DNA from: Methylobrevis pamukkalensis
GTDB taxonomy: Bacteria; Pseudomonadota; Alphaproteobacteria; Rhizobiales; Pleomorphomonadaceae
Length of the DNA stretch: 64,000 nt
Direction: 5' to 3'
Assembly (NCBI RefSeq): GCF_001720135.1
Contig: NZ_MCRJ01000001.1
Coordinates: 62,001 to 126,000 of the forward strand
The translations under genes and the position numbers were made by a program. A model generated the notes under the pieces. That model had not been told where the DNA came from. It searched no databases and saw only the letters and a list, made by a program, of their open reading frames with translations. Positions 21,206 through 32,346 of this stretch are shown piece by piece; the stretch's first letter is position 1, and each line of letters starts with the position of its first letter.

Positions 21206-21772
21206 ATGGGTTTGATGACCAACGTGGAACGTGAAGAGGAATGGGACCGCTGGATGCGCGCCGCCATCGCGGGTGACAACCGGGCCTATCATCGGTTCCT
21301 GACCGCGCTCACGCCGCATCTGAGGACGATCGCGCGCCGGCGCTGCAGCCAGCTCGGCCTTCCGCCGAGCGAGGCGGAGGACGTCGTTCAGGAGGTCCTG
21401 CTGGCCATCCACCTCAAGCGGTCGAGCTGGGATCCCGCCCGCCCGCTCCGGCCCTGGATTTCCGCCATCGTCCGCAACAAGCTGGTCGACATCCTGCGGC
21501 GGCGGGGACGGCACATCGACGTTCCTCTCGAAGACGTCGTCGCCGTCCTCGAGAGCGAGGGTCGCGCCGACTCCACCGACCGCATCGATGTGGAACACAT
21601 TCTGTCGCGGCTGGGGGATCCGCAGCGCACGATCGTGCATTCCATTTCGATCGAAGGTACGAGTGTACGGGAAACGGCGGCCCGGTTGAAAATGACGGAA
21701 GTCGCAGTACGTGTATCCCTCCACCGCGCCCTGAAATCACTCGCGACCTTCTACCGGAGTGAGAACGCTTGA
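21206..21772 (+). CDS. ECF sigma factor, SigF-like, paired with NrsF
   Basis: Extracytoplasmic-function sigma factor of 188 residues. Region 2 is about residues 25-90 (RRCSQLGLPPSEAEDVVQEV, RPLRPWISAIVRNKLVDILRRR). Region 4 is about residues 125-180 (RTIVHSISIEGTSVRETAAR, VAVRVSLHRALKSL). A second ATG at 21215 is possible. Its TGA overlaps the start of the DUF1109 gene, the arrangement of Caulobacter sigF-nrsF. Known relatives respond to metals or oxidants that hit Cys residues of NrsF. Two divergent operons 4 kb away carry SigF-type promoter motifs and are the predicted targets. Confidence 0.88.
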   Translation: MGLMTNVEREEEWDRWMRAAIAGDNRAYHRFLTALTPHLRTIARRRCSQLGLPPSEAEDVVQEVLLAIHLKRSSWDPARPLRPWISAIVRNKLVDILRRRGRHIDVPLEDVVAVLESEGRADSTDRIDVEHILSRLGDPQRTIVHSISIEGTSVRETAARLKMTEVAVRVSLHRALKSLATFYRSENA

Positions 21773-22404
21773 AAACCGATGACCTGATCGCGCTGCTGGC
21801 CCAGGATGCACCGCTGACCGCGCGCCTCGGCGACAGGCTGCGGCTCGGCGTCCTTGCGGCGCTGCTGCTGGCCGGTCTGCTGTTCGGGGCCGCGATCGGC
21901 GTGCGTCCGGATCTCGGCGCGGCGATGGCGAGCGACCGCTTCCTCTTCAAGTTCGTCGTCACGATCGCGCTGACCGTCAGCGCGGGCATTCTCGTGTTCC
22001 GGATCGGGCGCCCGGGCGTGCCGCTGCGCGTCCCTGCCTGGTGGCTGCTGAGCCCGCTCGTGCTGGCTGTCGCAGCGGCCCTGGCCGAACTCCTCGCCGT
22101 GCCCTCCGACGCATGGGGCGCGCGGATGATCGGCGAGAATGCCAGCCACTGCCTGACCATGATCCCGCTGCTGTCGATCGTGCCGCTTGCCTGCCTTCTC
22201 CATGCGCTGCGCTACGGCGCCCCGGAGCGGCCGGGCCTTGCCGGGGCGGTGGCCGGCCTGTTCGCCTCGGGCATCGCGGCGACCCTCTATGCGTCGAGCT
22301 GCACCGACGACAGTCCGCTCTTCATCCTGCTCTGGTATCCGATGGCGATCGCCCTCGTGACGGTGGCGGGATGGCTTGCGGGCCGGCGCCTGCTGCAGTG
22401 GTGA
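21769..22404 (+). CDS. nrsF: NrsF-like (DUF1109) anti-sigma factor
   Basis: Six-helix inner-membrane protein of 211 residues that should hold the ECF sigma factor inactive. It starts with TTG overlapping the sigma stop (TTGA), so the two are translationally coupled. The N-terminal cytoplasmic segment is MKTDDLIALLAQDAPLTARLGDRL, typical of DUF1109. Cysteines sit in NASHCLTMIPLL, VPLACLL and ASSCTDDSP. The first and last resemble the paired periplasmic-side cysteines reported to sense metal in the Caulobacter protein. The next gene converges on it. Confidence 0.88.
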   Translation: MKTDDLIALLAQDAPLTARLGDRLRLGVLAALLLAGLLFGAAIGVRPDLGAAMASDRFLFKFVVTIALTVSAGILVFRIGRPGVPLRVPAWWLLSPLVLAVAAALAELLAVPSDAWGARMIGENASHCLTMIPLLSIVPLACLLHALRYGAPERPGLAGAVAGLFASGIAATLYASSCTDDSPLFILLWYPMAIALVTVAGWLAGRRLLQW

Positions 22405-22458
22405 GGAGCTGACGGGCGCGGCCCGCCTCCGGCGGCCGTGCCTCCGGCGAAGGGCCGG

Positions 22459-22872
22459 TCAGAGCGGCTTGACCACGGCAAGCCAGGCGATCGCGGCGAG
22501 ACTCCCGAGGATGACGGCGGGTGCGGTCCGCAGGACCGCCGGCGGGGGCAGGCCGTCCGCGAGACAGCGCGCGAGCGCCGCGCCCTGGGCTAGATGCAGC
22601 CCGGTCAGGAGCGTGGCCGGCCCGAGCTTCACCAGCAGCCACGGCGCGGTGTCCCATCCGCCGCCGAAGGCCATGGTGTAGCCGGCCATCCAGACGACGG
22701 CGAGGGCCGGTGTCGTGACCAGCCCGTCCCATGCACGAAGGCCGACGAGGAAGCGCCGGAGCCGGTCGTCCACGGGCGCCTCGGCAAGGCGCAGGGTGAG
22801 GGCAACAGCCAGCATGCCGCCGACCGCCGTCACCACCACGAAGACGTGCAGGGCCTTGATGTAGACGTACAC
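22459..22872 (-). CDS. CopD/HemJ-like four-helix membrane protein
   Basis: Inner-membrane protein of 137 residues with four hydrophobic segments. The start YIKALHVFVVVTAVGGMLAVALTLRL resembles the first helix of HemJ and CopD proteins, including the conserved His that binds heme in HemJ. It is last in the seven-gene redox operon, 14 bases after the preceding gene. It could be a heme-binding electron carrier or a protoporphyrinogen-oxidase relative; the company of a ferric-reductase/Rieske protein favours an electron-transfer role. I infer this from context. Confidence 0.65.
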   Translation of the reverse strand: MYVYIKALHVFVVVTAVGGMLAVALTLRLAEAPVDDRLRRFLVGLRAWDGLVTTPALAVVWMAGYTMAFGGGWDTAPWLLVKLGPATLLTGLHLAQGAALARCLADGLPPPAVLRTAPAVILGSLAAIAWLAVVKPL

Positions 22873-22886
22873 GCTCGTCCCCGCCC

Positions 22887-23096
22887 TCAGCGCATCAGGC
22901 GCGACAGCAGCGCATGGATCGCCGACAGCAGCACGAACACATAGGCGGCGAAGGCGAGGTAGCGCAGATCCCGGAAGGGCGTCGGATCAAGCAGCCCGAG
23001 GCCGTGGCGCCACGACAGGACGATGGCGAGGGCCGCTGCCGCGGCGACGGCAAGGCCGAGGAGATGGCGGCCGCGCCGCGGGTGGGGGTGGCTCAT
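22887..23096 (-). CDS. Small membrane protein (69 residues) of the redox operon
   Basis: Two hydrophobic segments (LLGLAVAAAAALAIVLSW and YLAFAAYVFVLLSAIHALL) after a His/Arg-rich start MSHPHPRRGRH. The ATG overlaps the upstream TGA as ATGA, so translation is coupled. No family recognised. His61 in the second segment could bind heme or a metal, but this is conjecture. It is likely a structural subunit of the neighbouring membrane redox complex. Confidence 0.6.
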   Translation of the reverse strand: MSHPHPRRGRHLLGLAVAAAAALAIVLSWRHGLGLLDPTPFRDLRYLAFAAYVFVLLSAIHALLSRLMR

Positions 23097-23862
23097 GACC
23101 GTTCCTCGCCGGCAAGGCCCGAGACCCTGAAGATCAGGAGGTCGTCGCGGCGTTCGACGGTTCCCTCCAGAACGACCGGAACGCCGGTCCTGTCCAGCAG
23201 GGCCGCGGGCATGGGGCCGCCATCCTCGGACGCCAGCAGGAAGAAGAGGTGTCCGGCCACCGGTGCGGTCGAGGCGAACACCGGTGGTACGCCGCCGGAG
23301 ATGCACAGGTTGGCGCAGGCCTTGTGGGCAAGGCCGGTGCCCGGCTTCATGGCGCCGGCAAGGCATTTCCCGTCGCAGATCTCGCCCGTGAGGCGCCACC
23401 TGCCCAGCGGTTCGGCGGCCGGCGGGGGCGGCGGGGCGGCCGGCGCCTCGGCCGCCCTCAGGTCGTTGCGGCCGCCGCCCACCAGCAGCATGTCGAGATC
23501 GCCGCGCCTGACGAAGATGCCGCCGGCCTCGACGGCGGTGCCGGCGAGCGGCTGCGCCCGGTCCGCCACGCCGAACTTTCCCGAGCCTGCAAGCATGATC
23601 GCCCGTGCCGGCGCGTCGCCCGCCGCGGGCACCCGGAGGATCGGATAGGGCCGCGTTTCGAGGATGCCGGTGAGCCGTCCGCCGCGCAACTCGTCCACAT
23701 AGCGCCCGGCGCGGGGCTGTCCGTGCCGGCGGACAGCAGCAGCGACGCGCAGGCAAGGCTCGCCAGGAAGAAGGCGGCGAAGGCGAAGGCCACGGCCCGC
23801 ACGTCCGGCGGCACCTTCCGGAAATAGCCGACGAAGAATCCGCGGTCGGCGGGCTTGAGCAT
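23093..23862 (-). CDS. Membrane-anchored protein with CxxxC/HxxCxxxC domain, apparent frameshift
   Basis: N-terminal membrane anchor (FAFAAFFLASLACASLLL), then an extracytoplasmic part of about 200 residues. Near the C-terminus is a dense motif LTGEICDGKCLAGAMKPGTG followed by AHKACANLCISGGVPP. It has four Cys and one His in CxxxC and HxxCxxxC spacing, plausibly a metal or cofactor site. A base is missing in the GGGG run near 23715; repair joins DSPRAGRYVDEL. The ATG overlaps the stop of the Rieske fusion gene as TGATG. I have the impression that such motifs occur beside Rieske or ferric-reductase-like genes in other genomes. Function unknown. Confidence 0.65.
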
Positions 23863-24938
23863 CACGCGGTTCCTTGCCTTGCGGGCGCGGCCGGGATCGG
23901 CAGCGGCTCGAGGCGCGTGCCGAGGGGCAGGGGATCGGGGTCGACCAGCACCGTCGTTCCCGCAAGCCGCACCCGATACTTGCGGATGCGCTCGCGGAAG
24001 GGCGGCGGCGAACAGCCGTCCTCCAGCCGGTACTGGTAGCCGTGCCAGGGGCAGGTCACCAGGCCGCGCACGACCTTGCCCTCGCCGATCGGGCCGTTCT
24101 GATGGGAGCAGACGTTGGAAAAGGCCGAGAGCGCGCCGTTCGACCGGAAGACGGCGATGCGCTCGCCGCCCGGACCGGCGCCGAGGATCGCCCGGCCCTC
24201 GGCGATTTCGGCGACATCACCGACGACGATCCACCCGTCGTCCGGATCGACCGGCGAGCCCTCCGCATCGGCCACGCGCTCGCGGCGTCCCGTGACCAGA
24301 TGCAGCGTGCACAGCAGCGCGAGGCCGCCGAGCGTCAGAAGGGCGAGCGTCATGTCGCGGCGGCTGGCCAGCGCCCCCAGCGCCACATGCAGCACCACGG
24401 CCGCATAGGCGGCATAGATGCTCATGTGGATGCCCTTCCACAGCGGGGGAGACAGGAAGGAGAGCCAGAAGTCGTGGCTGGTGACGGCGAGGATGCCGAG
24501 AATCAGCAGTGCGAGGATGCCGAAGATCTCGAAGGGAAAGCCGGCGATGCTGCCGAAGCTGGTGTTGCTGGTGAACAGCGCGGTCATCTGCGGCGTCGGG
24601 CTGTAGGCGAAATACCACGCCAGCACGTAGGCGGCGTGGGTGGCCGCCACCACCGCCGTGATCACGCCGAAGTGCCGGCGGTTGTAGAGCAGCGGCATGA
24701 AGCGTGTGTCGAGCCTGGCCAGCGGGCCGATGGCGAGCACGAAGGTCAGCAGCAGCAGGGCCAGCGATCCGAAGGCCCGCATGCGCCGGATCGGCGGGTC
24801 GACCTCCTGCAGGGCCGTCGAGATCTGCGGCCCGACGTTCAGGTAGAGCAGGATGTAGAGGACAATGCCCGCGAGCAGGACCGCGTCGTAGATCAGCTTC
24901 GTCCGGTTCCAGATGACGGGCTTGTAGGAAACGCTCAT
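23862..24938 (-). CDS. Ferric-reductase-like transmembrane domain fused to a Rieske [2Fe-2S] domain
   Basis: Inner-membrane redox protein of 358 residues. Residues 15-215 form about six helices of the ferric-reductase/MsrQ type. Candidate heme-b ligands are His89 and His101 (RRHFGVITAVVAATH) and His171 and His184 (GIHMSIYAAYAAVVLH). Residues 232-340 are a Rieske domain with CSH (Cys277, His279) and CPWHG (Cys296, His299). The flavin/NADPH domain of eukaryotic-type reductases is absent, so electrons would pass between heme and the iron-sulfur cluster. It is the core of the seven-gene operon. A bifunctional oxygenase-type role is less likely because no catalytic domain follows. Confidence 0.87.
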   Translation of the reverse strand: MSVSYKPVIWNRTKLIYDAVLLAGIVLYILLYLNVGPQISTALQEVDPPIRRMRAFGSLALLLLTFVLAIGPLARLDTRFMPLLYNRRHFGVITAVVAATHAAYVLAWYFAYSPTPQMTALFTSNTSFGSIAGFPFEIFGILALLILGILAVTSHDFWLSFLSPPLWKGIHMSIYAAYAAVVLHVALGALASRRDMTLALLTLGGLALLCTLHLVTGRRERVADAEGSPVDPDDGWIVVGDVAEIAEGRAILGAGPGGERIAVFRSNGALSAFSNVCSHQNGPIGEGKVVRGLVTCPWHGYQYRLEDGCSPPPFRERIRKYRVRLAGTTVLVDPDPLPLGTRLEPLPIPAAPARQGTA

Positions 24939-25096
24939 GGCTGCCCTTCCGCCGCCGGCGCCGCATCGAGCCGCACGGCGGGTGCGTCGGGCGCGGGTTT
25001 CGGCAGGGTGGTGAAGATGATCGCCACCGCGAGCGGCAGGACGACGGCAAGACCGGTCCAGATGGCGGCGTGGGCCCGGCGGTGGCGGCGCTGCAT
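24935..25096 (-). CDS. Single-span membrane protein (53 residues) of the redox operon
   Basis: A short protein with a basic start (MQRRHRRAHAAIW), one helix (TGLAVVLPLAVAIIFTTLP), and an Ala/Pro-rich acidic tail. Its TGA overlaps the ATG of the ferric-reductase/Rieske gene (ATGA). Size and topology suit a small subunit or assembly factor of a membrane cytochrome complex. No family recognised. Confidence 0.6.
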   Translation of the reverse strand: MQRRHRRAHAAIWTGLAVVLPLAVAIIFTTLPKPAPDAPAVRLDAAPAAEGQP

Positions 25097-25098
25097 GC

Positions 25099-25314
25099 CT
25101 AGCGCTCCTCTCTCGACCGCACGACCCAGCGCCAGAGGACGAGGGGCCACAGCAGGACGATCCCGGCGACCAGCAGGGGGCGGACGGCATAGGCGTCCTC
25201 GGCGCCCGGATCGAGGCGATCGAAGCCGTAGAGCAGGAAGGCGCCTGCCACGCACAGCCCGGCGAGGCCCCACAGCATCAGGGCGGCCGAGACCGGATCG
25301 GACGCGTCGGGCAT
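25099..25314 (-). CDS. Two-span membrane protein (71 residues) of the redox operon
   Basis: Two hydrophobic segments (ALMLWGLAGLCVAGAFLLYG and PLLVAGIVLLWPLVLWRWVV) joined by an acidic loop DRLDPGAEDAYAVR, with a basic end. It lies 10 bases after the dehydrogenase gene and 2 bases before the 53-residue protein gene. Tight packing and shared topology argue for a real gene. No family recognised. Confidence 0.6.
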   Translation of the reverse strand: MPDASDPVSAALMLWGLAGLCVAGAFLLYGFDRLDPGAEDAYAVRPLLVAGIVLLWPLVLWRWVVRSREER

Positions 25315-25324
25315 GGGTCCTCCG

Positions 25325-26029
25325 TCAGACGAGGCCTGTGGCCGGGATCGCGGCGCCGGTGACGACGCCCGCGCCGGGCGAGACGAGGAAGCCGATCAGG
25401 CGCGCGATGGCCTGCGGGGGGATCCAGCTGTCGGCCTTTGCGTTCGGCATGGCCGCGCGATTGACCGGGGTGTCGATCGTGCCCGGCAGGATGCAGTTGG
25501 CAGTGATGCGCCGCGCGCGGTTCTCGGCGGCGATCGCCTCGGTGAGCCGGAGGACTGCCCCTTTCGAGGCGGCGTAGGCGGCCTGGTTGGCCGTCGCCTT
25601 CAGGCCCGGGGCGGCGGCGATGTGGACGATGCGCCCGTATCCCGCGGCCTGCATCGGCTTGAGGACGGCGGCGCTGATCGCATAGGCCGACCGGGCGTTC
25701 AGCCGGATCATCCGGTCGAAGCCGTCGAGACCGTCCTCCTCGACCGGGCCGGTCTGAAAGCCGCCCACGGTGTTGACGAGAGCGTCCAGCCGGCCAAATT
25801 CCTCAAGGCATCTCTCCACGGCGAGGCGGCACGACGCCGCGTCGGTCAGATCGATGCCGGCGAGCTTGAGACAGGCCTGATCGGCCGGCAGCTCTGCCTG
25901 CAGCGCATCGAGCGGGGCCATCTCCCGCTCCACGCAGGCGAGACGGGCACCCGCGGCTGCCAGTTCCGCAACGACGGCACGGCCCAGATTGCCGCCCGCC
26001 CCGGTCACCATCACCACCTGTGGCTCCAT
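25325..26029 (-). CDS. Short-chain dehydrogenase/reductase lacking the usual catalytic Ser
   Basis: Classical SDR fold of 234 residues: nucleotide site VTGAGGNLGRAVV, then LVNTVGGFQTGP, and the YAASKG active-site Tyr and Lys. The residue normally a catalytic Ser (in the SS of the NISS strand) is Ala here: RIVHIAAAPGLKATANQAAY. The Asn of the tetrad (LNARSAY) is present. It may therefore be a weak or altered oxidoreductase. It is first in the redox operon, 54 bases after the predicted SigF-type -10 element. Confidence 0.85.
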   Translation of the reverse strand: MEPQVVMVTGAGGNLGRAVVAELAAAGARLACVEREMAPLDALQAELPADQACLKLAGIDLTDAASCRLAVERCLEEFGRLDALVNTVGGFQTGPVEEDGLDGFDRMIRLNARSAYAISAAVLKPMQAAGYGRIVHIAAAPGLKATANQAAYAASKGAVLRLTEAIAAENRARRITANCILPGTIDTPVNRAAMPNAKADSWIPPQAIARLIGFLVSPGAGVVTGAAIPATGLV

Positions 26030-26082
26030 TGCGGCCCCCTCCGTCCGATTGAAGCAGCCCCGCAGCGGAGGCTCGTCATGTA

Positions 26083-26108
26083 TTCGGGCCCGGGTGGACG
26101 AATGTTAC
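26083..26108 (-). promoter_or_regulatory. SigF-type ECF promoter for the leftward redox operon
   Basis: On the minus strand GTAACA (26108-26103), exactly 16 bases, then CGAA (26086-26083). This fits the GTAACC-N16-CGAA motif I recall for Caulobacter SigF-dependent genes, with one difference in the -35 box. It sits about 55 bases before the SDR start. Confidence 0.75.
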
Positions 26109-26185
26109 AGCCTCCCGAAAATTTCCGGGCGGGTCCCGCCTGAGGGCCGGACATGCTGCGTCTGCGAAAAAAATGGCGCCGCGAT

Positions 26186-26211
26186 GTAACGAAACACGCC
26201 CCGCCGGCGAA
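26186..26211 (+). promoter_or_regulatory. SigF-type ECF promoter for the rightward TPR/ThDP operon
   Basis: GTAACG, exactly 16 bases, then CGAA, facing right. It has the same architecture as the leftward copy 78 bases away. I saw no third copy in the window. Predicted transcript start is near 26218, giving a leader of about 90 bases. Confidence 0.75.
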
Positions 26212-26309
26212 TTGATCTTTGTCGGGCCTCTCCCGGCAACGGAACGCCATGGGGCGTGTCGGGCGCTCCCCTCCCGGCGCGCGTGCGGCGCTCTTTCTCA
26301 AGGAGCGAG

Positions 26310-27641
26310 ATGATGACACGCGACGTCTATGGCCTGTCGGCGAGCGCCAGCAACGCGGAGGCGACCCGCGCCTTCGAGCATGCCGTCCATGGCGTTGCGG
26401 CTCATCTGCCCACCACCGGCGTTTCGCTGCAGGCCGCCCTGTCGGCGGACCCCGACCATGTGCCGGCGCTTGCGCTGAAGGGTTTCGCGAACCTGATCCT
26501 TGCAAAATCCGAACTGGTGGAGACGGCCGCCGCGGCCTTGTCATCCGCCCGCGGGGCGCTGGCGCGCAAGGACGGGGGAACGGCCGACGAACGCATCCTC
26601 GTCCAGTCGCTAGAGGCAGCCCTCGCCGGGCATTTCGGACGGGCCGCAGAAATCCTCGACCAGGGATTTGCCGACAGGCCGACGACCTTCCTTCCCTTCA
26701 AGCTGTCGCATGCGCTCCGCTTCATGGTGGGGGACGCGGCGGGCATGCTGGTGGCGAGCGAGCGGGCGGTCGCGGCGATCGACAGCAGTCATGCCGCGGC
26801 CGGCTACCTGCTCGGATGCCATGCCTTCGCCCTCGAGGAACATGGCCGGTATCGGGAGGCCATGGAGGTCGGACAACGGGCCGTGACGCTCGCACCCGAC
26901 GATTCCTGGGGGCTGCACGCAGTCTCGCATGTCCACGAGATGCGCGGGGACACCAGCGCCGGCATCGACTGGCTGGAGAACAGCCGCAAGGCATGGTCGC
27001 GCTGCAACAACTTCTCGTTCCACATGGCCTGGCACCTCGGGCTCCTGCATCTGGAGCGTGGCGACCACGAGCGTGTGCTGCAGATCTACGACGACGAGGT
27101 CCGCCCGCAGCAGACCGACGACTTCCGCGACATGGCCAATGCGATTTCCCTGCTGTGGCGGCTGGAGCAGTCGGGCCTTCATGTCGGCGACCGGTGGACG
27201 GACATTGCCGAGATCGCCTCCCGGCGTCGCAAGGACACGGCGCTGGTCTTTGCCGTCCTGCACAACCTCGCGGCCCTCGTCGCGGTCGGCGACTGGACCG
27301 GTGTCGCCGATCTCGTCGAGGCGCTGGAGACCAGGGCGACCGGCACGGACGACCAGGCCCGCATCGCCGCCGAGATCGGCGTCCCGATGGCGCGGGTGCT
27401 GGCCGGGCTCGGCGCGCCGGCCGACCGGCAGATGCTCGACCGGATGGTGGCGAACCTGCCGAAGGTCGGCGGCAGCAATGCCCAGCGGGATTTCTTCGTT
27501 CTCGCCCTCGCCAAGGCGGTGGGCAACGTCGGCGACACCGTGGGTGTCAGCCGCATTCGCAGCGTCCGCCAGCGGCTGAAGGCCGAGGACCGTCTGTTCC
27601 AGTCCATCCAGCGGGCGGACGGCCTCAGCCTTTCGGCCTGA
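26310..27641 (+). CDS. TPR protein, TTC38-like
   Basis: Soluble helical-repeat protein of 443 residues with no signal peptide. Repeats are visible from about residue 50 to 350: ALALKGFANLILAKSEL, AGYLLGCHAFALEEHGRY, SWGLHAVSHVHEMRGDTSAG, FHMAWHLGLLHLERGDHERV. The conserved HAVSHVHEMRG and W-x-FHMAWHL patterns resemble tetratricopeptide-repeat protein 38 homologues. AAGGAG lies 4 bases before the first ATG and 7 before the second (26313); either may be used. First gene of the rightward operon under the predicted ECF promoter. The exact role is unknown. Confidence 0.8.
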   Translation: MMTRDVYGLSASASNAEATRAFEHAVHGVAAHLPTTGVSLQAALSADPDHVPALALKGFANLILAKSELVETAAAALSSARGALARKDGGTADERILVQSLEAALAGHFGRAAEILDQGFADRPTTFLPFKLSHALRFMVGDAAGMLVASERAVAAIDSSHAAAGYLLGCHAFALEEHGRYREAMEVGQRAVTLAPDDSWGLHAVSHVHEMRGDTSAGIDWLENSRKAWSRCNNFSFHMAWHLGLLHLERGDHERVLQIYDDEVRPQQTDDFRDMANAISLLWRLEQSGLHVGDRWTDIAEIASRRRKDTALVFAVLHNLAALVAVGDWTGVADLVEALETRATGTDDQARIAAEIGVPMARVLAGLGAPADRQMLDRMVANLPKVGGSNAQRDFFVLALAKAVGNVGDTVGVSRIRSVRQRLKAEDRLFQSIQRADGLSLSA

Positions 27642-27687
27642 TCCGTCCTCCCGGTCGCGTGCCCCTCCATTCCGAAGGTCTGAACGA

Positions 27688-28173
27688 ATGTCCATGAGCG
27701 ATGTGCCGAAACAACAGGTGTTTCCGATGCTCCGGCCAGGTCTGGCCAGCATCATCCTTGCGGCCGGCCTTGCCGCCGACATCGCGTGGGAGGTCTGGGC
27801 CCGCCTGATCACGCCGCTGCTGGTCGGCGGCCCGCTTCAGCCGGCCGCCCTCGTCCAGTCGGTCTTCGGCCTCAACAACCTCCTCCTCGCCGAAGCCATC
27901 CATGCGGTGGTGGGGATCGTGTTCTACCCGATCGGCTACCTGTTCATCGCCCGTCCGCTGCAGCGGCTCATCGTGCCCGGCCTGCCGTGGCTGCTGACCG
28001 GCATCGGCTTCGGGACCGGGCTCTGGGTGTTCGCGCTCTACGTCATGGCCCATCTTTTCGCGGGGCTGCCGGCCTTCCTCGGCTTTATTCCGTTGACCTG
28101 GGCGTCGCTGGTCGGACACATCCTGTTCGGCGTCGTCGTCGCCTTTGTCGTTCGCCGGATGGAGCGCGCGTAA
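27688..28173 (+). CDS. Four-helix membrane protein of the ECF-controlled operon
   Basis: 161 residues with four hydrophobic segments: PGLASIILAAGLAADIAWEV, AIHAVVGIVFYPIGYLFIA, WLLTGIGFGTGLWVFALYVM, and WASLVGHILFGVVVAFVV. His residues lie in the second, third-end (MAHLF) and fourth helices, which could bind heme, though this is only suggestive. It sits 46 bases after the TPR gene and 66 before the ThDP enzyme. No named family recognised with confidence. Confidence 0.7.
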   Translation: MSMSDVPKQQVFPMLRPGLASIILAAGLAADIAWEVWARLITPLLVGGPLQPAALVQSVFGLNNLLLAEAIHAVVGIVFYPIGYLFIARPLQRLIVPGLPWLLTGIGFGTGLWVFALYVMAHLFAGLPAFLGFIPLTWASLVGHILFGVVVAFVVRRMERA

Positions 28174-28239
28174 GCGCCGGCCGACCGAGCAAGGCGCGCG
28201 CCGCGCGCAGGCCGTCCCGTGTCCCGAGAAGCCGGTTTC

Positions 28240-29877
28240 ATGAGTCATCCCGATCCGCAGCAGCCCATGACCCGGGTCGCCGACACCGTCGCGCGCACCC
28301 TTCACAGCCACGGCGTCCGCCATGCCTTCGGCATGCCGGGCGGCGAGGTCGTGACCCTCATCGATGCCCTGCAGGCGGCCGGCATCGCTTTCCATCTGGC
28401 GCGCCACGAGACGGCGGCGGCGATCATGGCTGCTGGCGCCAGCACCCTGACGCGCCAGCCGGAGCTTCTGGTCACCACCGTCGGTCCGGGGCTGGCCAAT
28501 GCGGTCAACGGCATCGCCGATGCCTCCCAGGAGCGGGTGCCGCTCCTCGTTTTGTCCGGCATCGTCGATCGCGGAACGCGGGCGCGCTACACCCATCAGG
28601 TGATCGACCACGCCCAGATGCTGCGACCGCTGGTCAAGGCGTCCTTCGAGATCGAGCCGGAGAGTGCGGCCGCGACCGTGGCGCGCGCCATCGCGCTGGC
28701 GACGGCCGACCCGATGGGGCCGGTGCATCTCGACTTGTCACCGGCCATCGCCGCGGCGCGGGCGCCAGCCGCGTTGCCGGTCAGTCCGCCGGTCCTTGTC
28801 CGGACGGAGATCGCCCCCGGGGACCGCGCGGTGAGGGTGCTGGCCGGACGGATCGCGGCGGCGCGGCGACCGCTGGTCATCGCCGGGCTCGAGGCGGCAC
28901 GCGGCGGCGCCGGACCTGCGCTGCAACGTCTTGCCGAAGCCATCGGCGCGCCGGTCCTCTCCACCTACAAGGCCAAGGGCATCCTGCCGGAGACCCATCC
29001 GCTCGCCCTCGGCGGCGCGGGCCTGTCCCCGCTTGCCGACCGGGTCCTTCTCGATCTGGTCGGCCGCGCCGATCTCGTCCTGATGGTCGGATACGATCCG
29101 ATCGAGATGCGGATCGGATGGATGGACGCCGGGGGCGCGCCGGAGAGGACGGTGGAAATCGGCCGGTGGCTGCCCGACCATGCCATGCACCACGCAGGCA
29201 CCCGGGTCGTGGCGGATCCGGCGATGCTGCTGGAGGCTCTGGCCGGGGAGGTCGCGCCGGCGCCCGGCTGGACCGGCGGCGAGCCGGCCGCCGCGAAGGC
29301 GGCCCTGCGCGCCATCTTCGAGACGCCGGCGGGCGTCGGGCCTCATGCCCTGATCGACGTTCTCAACGATGTGGCGGGCGATGACGCGATCGTCACGGTC
29401 GACAGCGGCGCGCACCGCATCCTGCTGTCGCAGAAATGGGTGGCGCGACGCCCCATGTCGCTGCTGCAGTCGGCCGGCTTCTGCACGATGAACGCCGCCC
29501 TGCCGCTCGCGATCGGCGCGAAGGTCGCCGACCCGGCGCGGCGCGTCTTCGCCGTGATGGGAGACGGCGGCCTGGAGATGGGGATCGGCGAGCTTGCGAC
29601 GGTCCGCGATCTCGGGCTGCGACTGACCATCGTCGTGTTCAAGGACCGGAGCCTGGCGCTGATCGCCCTCAAGCAGGCGTCGGCCGGACTTGCGTCCGCG
29701 GGCGTCACGCTCGGCGACACGGACTTTGCCGCCGTGGCACGCGGGTTTGGCGGCCATGGCGCAAATGTGGAGACGGCGGATGACTTCCGTGACGAACTGG
29801 AGGCCGCAGGACAGCGCGGAGGCTTCACGCTCATCAGTTGCACCTTCGACAAGCGGGCCTATGACGGCGCATTCTAG
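28240..29877 (+). CDS. Thiamine-diphosphate-dependent enzyme, acetolactate-synthase-like
   Basis: 545-residue ThDP enzyme with the three domains of the acetolactate synthase/benzoylformate decarboxylase family. The N-terminal part has VRHAFGMPGGEVVTLIDAL, the cofactor-activating Glu in RHETAAA, and VGPGLANAVNG. The central domain is ALS-like. The C-terminal part has the ThDP motif start GDGGLEMG. The usual Asn-Asn at the end of that motif is replaced (VVFKDRSLALI), so activity may differ. An upstream GTG (28219) is possible, but the ATG is preferred. No small regulatory subunit gene is nearby, which argues against branched-chain amino acid synthesis. Substrate unknown. Confidence 0.82.
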   Translation: MSHPDPQQPMTRVADTVARTLHSHGVRHAFGMPGGEVVTLIDALQAAGIAFHLARHETAAAIMAAGASTLTRQPELLVTTVGPGLANAVNGIADASQERVPLLVLSGIVDRGTRARYTHQVIDHAQMLRPLVKASFEIEPESAAATVARAIALATADPMGPVHLDLSPAIAAARAPAALPVSPPVLVRTEIAPGDRAVRVLAGRIAAARRPLVIAGLEAARGGAGPALQRLAEAIGAPVLSTYKAKGILPETHPLALGGAGLSPLADRVLLDLVGRADLVLMVGYDPIEMRIGWMDAGGAPERTVEIGRWLPDHAMHHAGTRVVADPAMLLEALAGEVAPAPGWTGGEPAAAKAALRAIFETPAGVGPHALIDVLNDVAGDDAIVTVDSGAHRILLSQKWVARRPMSLLQSAGFCTMNAALPLAIGAKVADPARRVFAVMGDGGLEMGIGELATVRDLGLRLTIVVFKDRSLALIALKQASAGLASAGVTLGDTDFAAVARGFGGHGANVETADDFRDELEAAGQRGGFTLISCTFDKRAYDGAF

Positions 29878-31036
29878 CCCGGTCGAGGCACCGGCCGGGC
29901 CCACGGGAGGAACCAGCGTGGAGACCGCGAAGCCGGCGCGGGTGAAGCGGCCGCGCGATCCGCGGCTCGATTTCTTCCGCGGTGTCGGGATGGTCATCAT
30001 CCTTCTCGCGCATATCCCGGGCAACAGCTGGACGCTGTGGATTCCCGCAAGGTTCGGCTTTTCCGACGCGACAGAGATGTTCGTCTTCCTGTCCGGAATG
30101 GCGTCGGCCATTGCCTTCGGAACCACGTTCGACCGGCACGGCACGGTGGCGCTCGTCGCCCGGGTTGCGCATCGCATCTGGCAGATCTACTGGGCGCATG
30201 TCGCGATCTTCGTCACCATCACGGCGATCATGGTGACCGCCGGAACGCGGTATGACGGGGTGTCCTACGTCGCCAGCCTGAACCTCATGCCCTTCATCAA
30301 GGATCCCGGCCATCTGCTGGCGGCGCTGCTGGCGCTTGTGTATGTGCCGAACTATTTCGACATCCTGCCGATGTACATCGTCATCCTCGCGCTGATGCCG
30401 GTGATGCTGCTGGCCGAGCGGCTGCATCGGGGGGCATCTTTCGCGCTGATGATCCTGCTCTGGCTGGCAAGCCAGGTCGGGCTCACCGCGCTGCCCGCCG
30501 AGCCCTGGTCTGACCGGCCATGGTTCTTCAATCCCTTCGGCTGGCAGTTGCTGTTCTTCACCGGCTTCTTCCTCATGCGCGGCAGCCTGCCCGTGCCGCG
30601 CCCCAACCCGCTGCTGATGCTGCTTTCGGTCGTCCTCGTCCTCGCCTCGGTGCCTTTCGCCTGGGGCCCCTTTCACCAGATCCATCCGTTTTTCGGGGCG
30701 GCTGCCGCCGACATCGGCTGGCTGACCCAGAAGACCGATTTCGGGCTGCTGCGGTTCGTCCATTTCCTGGCACTCGGCTACATCGCCGCCAACGTCGTCG
30801 GCGAGCGCGGATCGCGGCTGCGCGGACGCGTCGTGGAGGTGATGAAGGTGGTGGGCCAGCAGTCCCTCGCCGTGTTCATGACCGGCATGGTGGTCGCCCA
30901 GATCATCGGCATCGGCCTCGATCTCGCGGGCCGCTCCGCTCTCGACGAGGTGATCGGCAACCTCTTCGGCATCGGCGTGCTGATCGCCGTCGCCTATCTG
31001 GTGCGCTGGTTCAAGGCCTCGCCCTGGAAGGCGTGA
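29861..31036 (+). CDS. OpgC-type membrane acyltransferase
   Basis: Polytopic membrane protein of 391 residues with about ten helices, matching OpgC (glucan succinyl/acyl transferase). The start RDPRLDFFRGVGMVIILLAHIPGNSW and FSDATEMFVFLSGMASAIAFG are OpgC hallmarks. It overlaps the ThDP gene by 17 bases, so the two are coupled. OpgC proteins add succinyl groups to periplasmic glucans; opgG and mdoH are about 28 kb away. Its place in an ECF stress operon suggests stress-induced decoration of glucan or another envelope sugar, an inference from context. Confidence 0.85.
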   Translation: MTAHSSPVEAPAGPTGGTSVETAKPARVKRPRDPRLDFFRGVGMVIILLAHIPGNSWTLWIPARFGFSDATEMFVFLSGMASAIAFGTTFDRHGTVALVARVAHRIWQIYWAHVAIFVTITAIMVTAGTRYDGVSYVASLNLMPFIKDPGHLLAALLALVYVPNYFDILPMYIVILALMPVMLLAERLHRGASFALMILLWLASQVGLTALPAEPWSDRPWFFNPFGWQLLFFTGFFLMRGSLPVPRPNPLLMLLSVVLVLASVPFAWGPFHQIHPFFGAAAADIGWLTQKTDFGLLRFVHFLALGYIAANVVGERGSRLRGRVVEVMKVVGQQSLAVFMTGMVVAQIIGIGLDLAGRSALDEVIGNLFGIGVLIAVAYLVRWFKASPWKA

Positions 31037-31088: not shown

Positions 31089-31898
31089 TCACCTCGGGAA
31101 CCCGACCGCCGACAGCCCGGCGTCGACGTCGCCGGACCTGACGACATGGCCGCCGTCATGGATGCACAGAAGGCTGGCGCCGCGCACGCAGCCGGGCGCC
31201 TCGTCGCAGGCGAGGCCGTCCAGCGTGGCGGTGCGCGGCTGCTCGATGTCGCAGCGCGCCTGCTCGCGCAGGATCGCGATGCTCCTGAAGGTGTCGCCCT
31301 GGTGCAGGCGGGAGCCGATGGCCCGGCCGGACAGCGGGAAGGTCCGGTCGGCGGTGCCGTGGAAATGGACCATGGGCGGCAGGTTCCGGGTGCAGTCGCC
31401 GGCCTGCGGGAGGGGGTTCCAGAAGACGCCGGAGAAGGTGACGAGACCGGCGACCTTGTCGCCCTGCAGGCAGGCCGTGTACCACGCCATCGACGCCCCG
31501 ATCGAAAAGCCTCCGATCACCGTGCTGGGCCCGGTGATCCCGAAGCGGGTCTCAAGGTCGGTGAGGACATCGGCGACGAACGCCTGGTCGTCGCGGCCCT
31601 GCTGCGGGTTGCCCGGAAACGACCAGCGCCCGGCGAGGCCGTCGACGGCGACGAAGGCGAGATGGTGGGCCAGCGTGGTGTCGACGAGGCCCCGCTGCCC
31701 GATCTGCAGGGCGGCGGAGCTCTTGTAGCCGTGAAAGAAGACGTAGGCGCCGCGGACGTCGCCGTCGGCCGGCAGTTCGATGCGATAGTCGCCGCCCCGG
31801 ATCGAGCAGACCGTCCCGCCGCCGCAGTCGGCGGCGAGGGTGGCGGTGCAGGCGGCGATGCCGAGGAGGACGCCCGCTGCAAGTGACCGGACCAACAT
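31089..31898 (-). CDS. Secreted alpha/beta hydrolase, PHB-depolymerase-like (LpqC type)
   Basis: Signal peptide MLVRSLAAGVLLGIAACTATLA, then a hydrolase fold of about 245 residues: oxyanion region VFFHGYKSSAA, nucleophile Ser in GGFSIGASMAW, PPMVHFHGTADRTFPL, and catalytic-type His in HDGGHVV. Four or more Cys suggest disulfides in the periplasm. Relatives include poly(3-hydroxybutyrate) depolymerases and feruloyl esterases. No substrate-binding or lipid-binding domain is visible, so it may act on short esters. It converges with the OpgC-type gene. Confidence 0.78.
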   Translation of the reverse strand: MLVRSLAAGVLLGIAACTATLAADCGGGTVCSIRGGDYRIELPADGDVRGAYVFFHGYKSSAALQIGQRGLVDTTLAHHLAFVAVDGLAGRWSFPGNPQQGRDDQAFVADVLTDLETRFGITGPSTVIGGFSIGASMAWYTACLQGDKVAGLVTFSGVFWNPLPQAGDCTRNLPPMVHFHGTADRTFPLSGRAIGSRLHQGDTFRSIAILREQARCDIEQPRTATLDGLACDEAPGCVRGASLLCIHDGGHVVRSGDVDAGLSAVGFPR

Positions 31899-32002
31899 CG
31901 ATGGAGACCTCGCCGTGAACGTGGCCGCAACTGCCGACGACAGTCCTAGGGGCATGGCGCCGCCTCGGCAATTTGCCGGACCATCACACTTGCGAGAGCG
32001 TC

Positions 32003-32261: not shown

Positions 32262-32346
32262 GCGGGTGTGGTGGAACTGGTAGACGCGCCGGACTCAAAA
32301 TCCGGTTCCGCAAGGAGTGTCGGTTCGATTCCGACCACCCGCACCA
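32262..32346 (+). tRNA. tRNA-Leu (anticodon CAA)
   Basis: Class II cloverleaf: acceptor GCGGGTG/CACCCGC, anticodon stem CCGGA/TCCGG around loop CTCAAAA (anticodon CAA, reads UUG), variable arm, T arm GGTTCGATTCC, and encoded CCA. Confidence 0.97.

Follow-up and report, generated by a model that had tools for sequence, protein, structure and literature searches.

Several described systems resemble the locus reported here. Caulobacter crescentus SigF/NrsF is a sigma factor paired with a DUF1109 protein that has cysteines 50 residues apart (C131/C181), and its targets, two operons with DUF2282, DUF692 and DUF2063 genes (one of them also with DoxX) and a YedY-type gene, are preceded by GTAACC-N16-CGAA, a motif with 5' RACE and reporter support (PMC3511200). 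EcfF/OsrA of Bradyrhizobium japonicum has an NrsF-type anti-sigma factor (C129/C179), a GTAAC(g/a) −35 box, a response to H2O2 and a small, oxidoreductase-rich regulon, and the group consensus is given there as tGTAACc-N16-CGAA (PMC3420878). BcrS/AbcS of Brucella melitensis is an ECF16 sigma and anti-sigma pair (cysteines again C129/C179) with a mapped TGTAAC/GCGAAA promoter and a redox target operon that encodes an MsrQ-type haem membrane protein; the group consensus is written (T/C)GTAAC-N17-CGAA (PMC8315932). For the ECF16 factor RpoE7 of Sinorhizobium meliloti, predicted ECF16-like motifs precede both the operon of the factor itself and a single target operon (PMC6180224). Cysteine sensing and sigma release were demonstrated in such pairs of other species.

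The original prediction placed a SigF-like gene and an NrsF/DUF1109 partner close together in the window (the whole stretch analysed, 64,000 nucleotides of Methylobrevis pamukkalensis), and both were found (Table 1). The sigma factor has 188 residues and consists of regions 2 and 4 only; it scored 262.6 bits against NCBIfam NF009165 (cut-off 198), the ECF16 label being assigned independently of the published ECF group models. Homologues 68% and 73% identical to it adjoin NrsF in another genome, G396. The adjacent gene product was recognised as an NrsF/DUF1109 anti-sigma factor by PF06532, and no other NrsF match occurs in the genome (86% complete); with the stricter NCBIfam NrsF equivalog it reached 97.8 bits, below the cut-off of 300. 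It contains two conserved cysteines, C128 and C178, 50 residues apart. All 14 aligned proteins have C128 and 11 of them have C178, which is absent from L123, L124 and L125; their equivalence to Caulobacter C131/C181 is drawn from position and the 50-residue distance, the Caulobacter protein lying outside the alignment.

Table 1. Features of the locus (window positions, except where a locus of a relative is named).
Feature	Position	Strand	Evidence
ECF sigma factor gene, SigF-like, ECF16 type	21206..21772	plus	Pfam Sigma70_r2 5.5e-12, Sigma70_r4_2 1.1e-7
nrsF anti-sigma gene, DUF1109/PF06532	21769..22404	plus	PF06532 4.9e-54, 183.7 bits
Left gene 7, small membrane protein, weakly UPF0093-like	22459..22872	minus	PF03653 5.7e-7, below cut-off
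Left gene 6, small membrane protein	22887..23096	minus	ORF; homologue at same place in L103
Left gene 5, membrane-anchored, four-cysteine motif, frameshifted	23093..23862	minus	Alignment of relatives
Left gene 4, ferric-reductase-like haem membrane domain fused to Rieske [2Fe-2S] domain	23862..24938	minus	PF01794 3.2e-12, PF00355 2e-14
Left gene 3, small membrane protein	24935..25096	minus	ORF; in some relatives, homologues next to gene 4
Left gene 2, small membrane protein	25099..25314	minus	ORF; homologues beside gene 4 in 14/15 other loci
Left gene 1, short-chain dehydrogenase/reductase (SDR)	25325..26029	minus	PF00106 4.5e-44
Predicted ECF16-type promoter, left operon	26083..26108 (read 26108-26083)	minus	GTAACA-N16-CGAA
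Predicted ECF16-type promoter, right operon	26186..26211	plus	GTAACG-N16-CGAA
Right gene 1, TPR protein, 443 aa	26310..27641	plus	Weak TPR matches
Right gene 2, conserved membrane protein	27688..28173	plus	No Pfam match
Right gene 3, ThDP enzyme, acetolactate-synthase-like superfamily	28219..29877	plus	PF02775, PF02776, PF00205
Right gene 4, OpgC-like acyltransferase	29861..31036	plus	PF10129 3.8e-99; family role periplasmic glucan succinylation
Alternative TPR-operon head (ECF sigma + 83-aa zinc-finger)	L149:8823-10004; L167:8991-10004		

The two putative target operons diverge from an intergenic gap that measures exactly 280 bases, as had been claimed (26030-26309, between the SDR start codon at 26029 and the TPR start codon at 26310). 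Two outward-facing GTAAC(A/G)-N16-CGAA elements had been proposed to lie within it, and their positions and strands were confirmed; these two matches compare with 0.04 expected in shuffled sequences. Both sites have the GTAAC-N17-CGAA arrangement of target promoters in ECF16/NrsF systems, and the resemblance to the Caulobacter SigF motif holds against its published form (PMC3511200). The count of seven left and four right target genes was also correct, except that the assembly has a frameshift near 23713 within left gene 5, either an assembly error or a real loss; the homologue of this gene is one open frame in 19 relatives.

To follow the promoter beyond this genome, 80 relatives of the TPR gene were used, the best of 240 from named genomes; 13 of the 80 have NrsF within the fetched locus (up to 10 kb either side of the TPR gene). 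When GTAAC and CG(A/T)A were required to be 16-18 bases apart in the 450 bases before the TPR gene, the motif was present in 27 of 50 NrsF-bearing genomes and in 0 of 29 NrsF-free genomes (Fisher test, 1.8e-7). One of the 29, L200, had no usable upstream sequence, which makes 0 of 28 the fairer figure; L160, whose upstream sequence was short, is not among the 50. The NrsF-free set includes incomplete metagenome bins, and such p-values overstate the case because genomes share ancestry. Among TPR relatives with at least 57% identity, the motif was found in 19 of 25 NrsF-bearing and 0 of 10 NrsF-free genomes. Anagram, wrong-spacing, complement and coding-region controls all scored 0 and the reversed pattern 1, and in a scan of spacings from 10 to 26 a spacing of N17 after GTAAC produced 24 matches, with at most two at every other spacing. 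An earlier, overlapping sample of 58 loci had the CGA(A/T) form in 8, against 0.43 expected. The exact motif was absent upstream of the TPR relative in 23 of the 50 NrsF-bearing genomes, and three of these, the Inquilinus-type L163, L164 and L216, have GTAATA-N16-CGAA. Together with the alignment of gaps and the promoter types described below, these comparisons support the prediction that both gap sites act as promoters.

In Rhizobium laguerreae FB206, a 100-kb stretch (G712:C32:1-100000, L282-L286) holds the module, five NrsF genes and 23 ECF16-type motifs; in the anagram control the mean was 1.55 over all 60 words, GTAAC included, and the next best word gave 5. Gene borders in this stretch are rough, as genes were called by a simple script. 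Two glyoxalase-family genes and a second, short TPR-like gene each have a motif 61-71 bases upstream, and two sigma genes have one at 5-14 bases. Another motif lies about 1 kb before the start of an MsrA gene, and DsbD, a DsbA-like gene, pirin and insertion-sequence genes are found in the vicinity. The gene set resembles the known EcfF regulon, a likeness that favours an oxidant-damage theme. Over whole genomes, TGTAAC-N17-CG(A/T)A outnumbered the reversed pattern in the same strain (32 vs 11) but not in Rhizobium G396 (14 vs 23) or G683 (15 vs 20); the counts were 2 vs 21 and 0 vs 5 in two NrsF-free genomes.

One could envisage that the gap sites are real ECF promoters but are used by another ECF sigma factor of the genome, with the SigF-like protein serving other genes. 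The window sigma gene itself has no such motif upstream, up to one mismatch (an autoregulatory promoter is common in these systems, not defining), and the relatives' sigma genes beside NrsF have GTAAC...CG(A/T)A upstream in 10 of 12 cases, 8 at N17 and 2 at N16. Furthermore, other ECF factors may use GTAAC-like −35 boxes, and a different ECF sigma heads the operon in some NrsF-free Rhizobiales. We refer to the ECF16-type motif as type A and to GTAACG-N15-nGTCT as type B. Type B is present at both operons in six Rhizobiales loci whose genomes have no NrsF match (L148-L151, L154 and L155, three of them recorded as Rhizobium or Rhizobiaceae), and in all six a different ECF sigma gene precedes the TPR gene. 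An 83-residue zinc-finger protein follows this other sigma in the two heads read over their full length, L149 and S. meliloti 4H41 (L167), with scores of 22.1 and 18.5 bits against zf-HC2 (cut-off 22.2). The GTAACG box of L149 overlaps the stop codon of the sigma gene. In contrast, the N16 spacing with CG(A/T)A tracks the presence of NrsF and differs from type B, the window NrsF is the sole match noted above, and sigF-nrsF adjoins the TPR gene in G245, G159 and several named loci. In G245 nothing separates sigF, nrsF, the motif and the TPR gene, and the same holds for G159, with a spacing one base longer. We therefore regard control of the sites by another sigma factor as improbable.

The second alternative, that only one operon is a sigma target and the other site is inherited DNA devoid of function, was judged even less probable. 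Many relatives carry the motif at the right operon only, because the left operon lies elsewhere or was not found in the locus. However, eight Rhizobium loci share the divergent layout, and all eight have outward motifs on both sides, with a −10 box of CGAA or CGTA. An unguided alignment of nine gaps (these eight and the window), made with the motif ignored, had invariant columns at 16 of 18 box positions, 3 of 34 spacer positions and 18 of 198 others, so that both sites keep their boxes while the spacers diverge. Also against a single target are the six type-B loci, where the operons are separated, their promoters standing about 10 kb from each other, and both have the other promoter.

The pairing of promoter types was tabulated for 20 loci, 19 of them with an SDR of at least 40% identity. 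In these 19, which all have the TPR gene as well, 8 had type A at both operons, 6 had type B at both and none was mixed; of the remaining five, L147 had type B on the TPR side only, L194 had both types on the TPR side only, and three had neither. L194 (a Pseudoxanthobacter bin, G120) is colinear and has both promoter types in the 450 bases that precede its TPR gene, so that it may represent an intermediate or be under double control. In that genome one motif is followed by eight of the eleven genes in colinear order, in two groups about 1 kb apart. In a tree of TPR proteins, ten of eleven type-B rows formed one clade and type B needed two changes; the eleventh row, same-family G010, was hand-labelled from its zinc-finger head and a GTAACG...CGTC site. 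Since the type-B rows form one clade apart from G010, the 8-vs-6 contrast amounts to about one event, and the difference between type A and type B probably reflects a single switch.

Within the genome itself (4,380,693 bases in 348 contigs, 86% complete), the proposed motif scan gave a divided answer. The strict form, TGTAACNN{14,16}CGAAT (TGTAAC...CGAAT), had two matches, both in the gap, and its reversed control had none; GTAAC-N17-CG(A/T)A had four, two of them at the gap, against 14 for the reversed pattern, and GTAAC-N16..18-CGAA had 10 against 16. In the window, the anagram count was 2 for GTAAC and at least 2 for each of the other five of the six best words listed, one of which gave 4. 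Thus the claim that such a pair is unlikely by chance stands for the strict form, which is unique and paired, but not for the loose motif, which is not improbable in the genome or the window. Given that the looser forms are not rare, a single genome cannot settle the matter, and the evidential weight lies in pairing, placement and conservation in relatives: single-genome counts are weak evidence and the comparison is strong. Although the loose-motif counts here would by themselves leave room for chance matches in GC-rich DNA, the nine-gap alignment, the strict spacing and the NrsF association in relatives make that explanation negligible. Two further genome sites are not claimed as targets: C74:10862, at the end of one open frame and, by eye, upstream of an M23-peptidase-like gene, and C154:7224, which overlaps a possible start codon.

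The anatomy of the locus, the conservation of the promoters and their co-occurrence with NrsF were observed directly, and matching promoters are kept in relatives and differ alike where the sigma factor differs, which argues that one stress-sensing sigma switches both operons. We consider it highly probable that a sigma factor held by NrsF and freed by an oxidant-type signal co-activates the two operons through the outward promoters. NrsF would hold the sigma factor at the membrane until an oxidant-type signal, probably perceived through C128 and C178, releases it, and the freed sigma would guide RNA polymerase to both promoters, so that the operons come on together. By analogy with the characterised pairs, we infer cysteine sensing, sigma release and an oxidant or metal inducer.

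The left operon would then supply an inner-membrane electron-transfer unit (the ferric-reductase-like/Rieske protein, the cysteine protein and small membrane proteins) together with the SDR oxidoreductase, and the right operon the TPR protein, a membrane protein, the ThDP enzyme and an OpgC-type envelope acyltransferase; these enzymatic roles are deduced from domains. Left gene 4 matched MsrQ weakly (30.1 bits, cut-off 130). Cysteines C163, C167, C183 and C187 of the left gene 5 product (L172 numbering) are invariant in 15 aligned relatives. The predicted structure of the L172 protein had a mean pLDDT of 72.9 (55.8-58.3 for the other four models) and matched PDB entries weakly, many of them OB-fold proteins and none at E 0.001 or better; no function was drawn from it. 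Homologues of left gene 7 were found in 7 of the 80 relative loci (L140, L142, L144, L145, L166, L172 and L173). On the right, the TPR protein, which we take to be TTC38-like, matched by profile only two engineered TPR proteins in the PDB; homologues of right gene 2, 67-81% identical, lie downstream of close TPR relatives, and the top NCBIfam score of right gene 3 fell under that model's cut-off.

Just beyond the right operon is an alpha/beta hydrolase gene (Abhydrolase_2, 31089-31994, minus strand) with no motif upstream; a similar gene in the R. laguerreae stretch (81665-82474, minus strand) has motifs beside it and none upstream. A tRNA-Leu (caa) at 32262-32346, about 1.2 kb beyond the right operon, is a possible insertion site of the module.

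The window TPR protein groups in the tree with those of a Phyllobacterium and the eight Rhizobium loci of divergent layout (97/83), apart from same-family G010 and Methylobrevis albus, a placement suggestive of module transfer. Between 15 and 37 kb the GC content was 0.65-0.76, with no clear foreign segment. We are inclined, with reserve, to view the two operons as a single portable stress module, with selection acting on their common control by an ECF sigma; when a lineage exchanged the ECF16/NrsF head for another ECF sigma with a zinc-finger protein, both promoters would have changed type together. Two operons whose promoters change in concert on sigma exchange make a natural example for the study of regulon rewiring. 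A conserved operon pair would also be added to the ECF16 oxidant/metal stress regulons, giving these genes a testable physiological setting. In agreement with the claim that the regulon is undescribed as a unit, we found no description of it in the literature covered, which included few subscription papers and no bioRxiv preprints.

The known systems differ from this locus in their targets. In EcfF promoters, N14-15-(c/t)CG(t/a) places 15-16 bases before CG, the same as in the window or one shorter, but the targets are genes for peptide methionine sulfoxide reductases and DsbD-like and thioredoxin-like proteins, and the sigma factor is autoregulated (PMC3420878). The BcrS target is bcrXQP, for a methionine-rich peptide, MsrQ and MsrP (PMC8315932), whereas left gene 4 of the window carries a Rieske domain. 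The RpoE7 target is SMb20527-SMb20530, with orthologues in the Caulobacter CC3254-CC3257 operon (PMC6180224); in S. meliloti 4H41, which has no NrsF match, the TPR operon lies behind another ECF sigma gene and a zinc-finger gene. A Caulobacter-type target operon with DUF692 was sought through PF05114, which had no match in the 86%-complete genome. Unlike the Caulobacter SigF regulon, the window has TPR/ThDP/OpgC and SDR/Rieske operons as its putative targets, and the system seems to be an ECF16-type regulon whose target operons are new.
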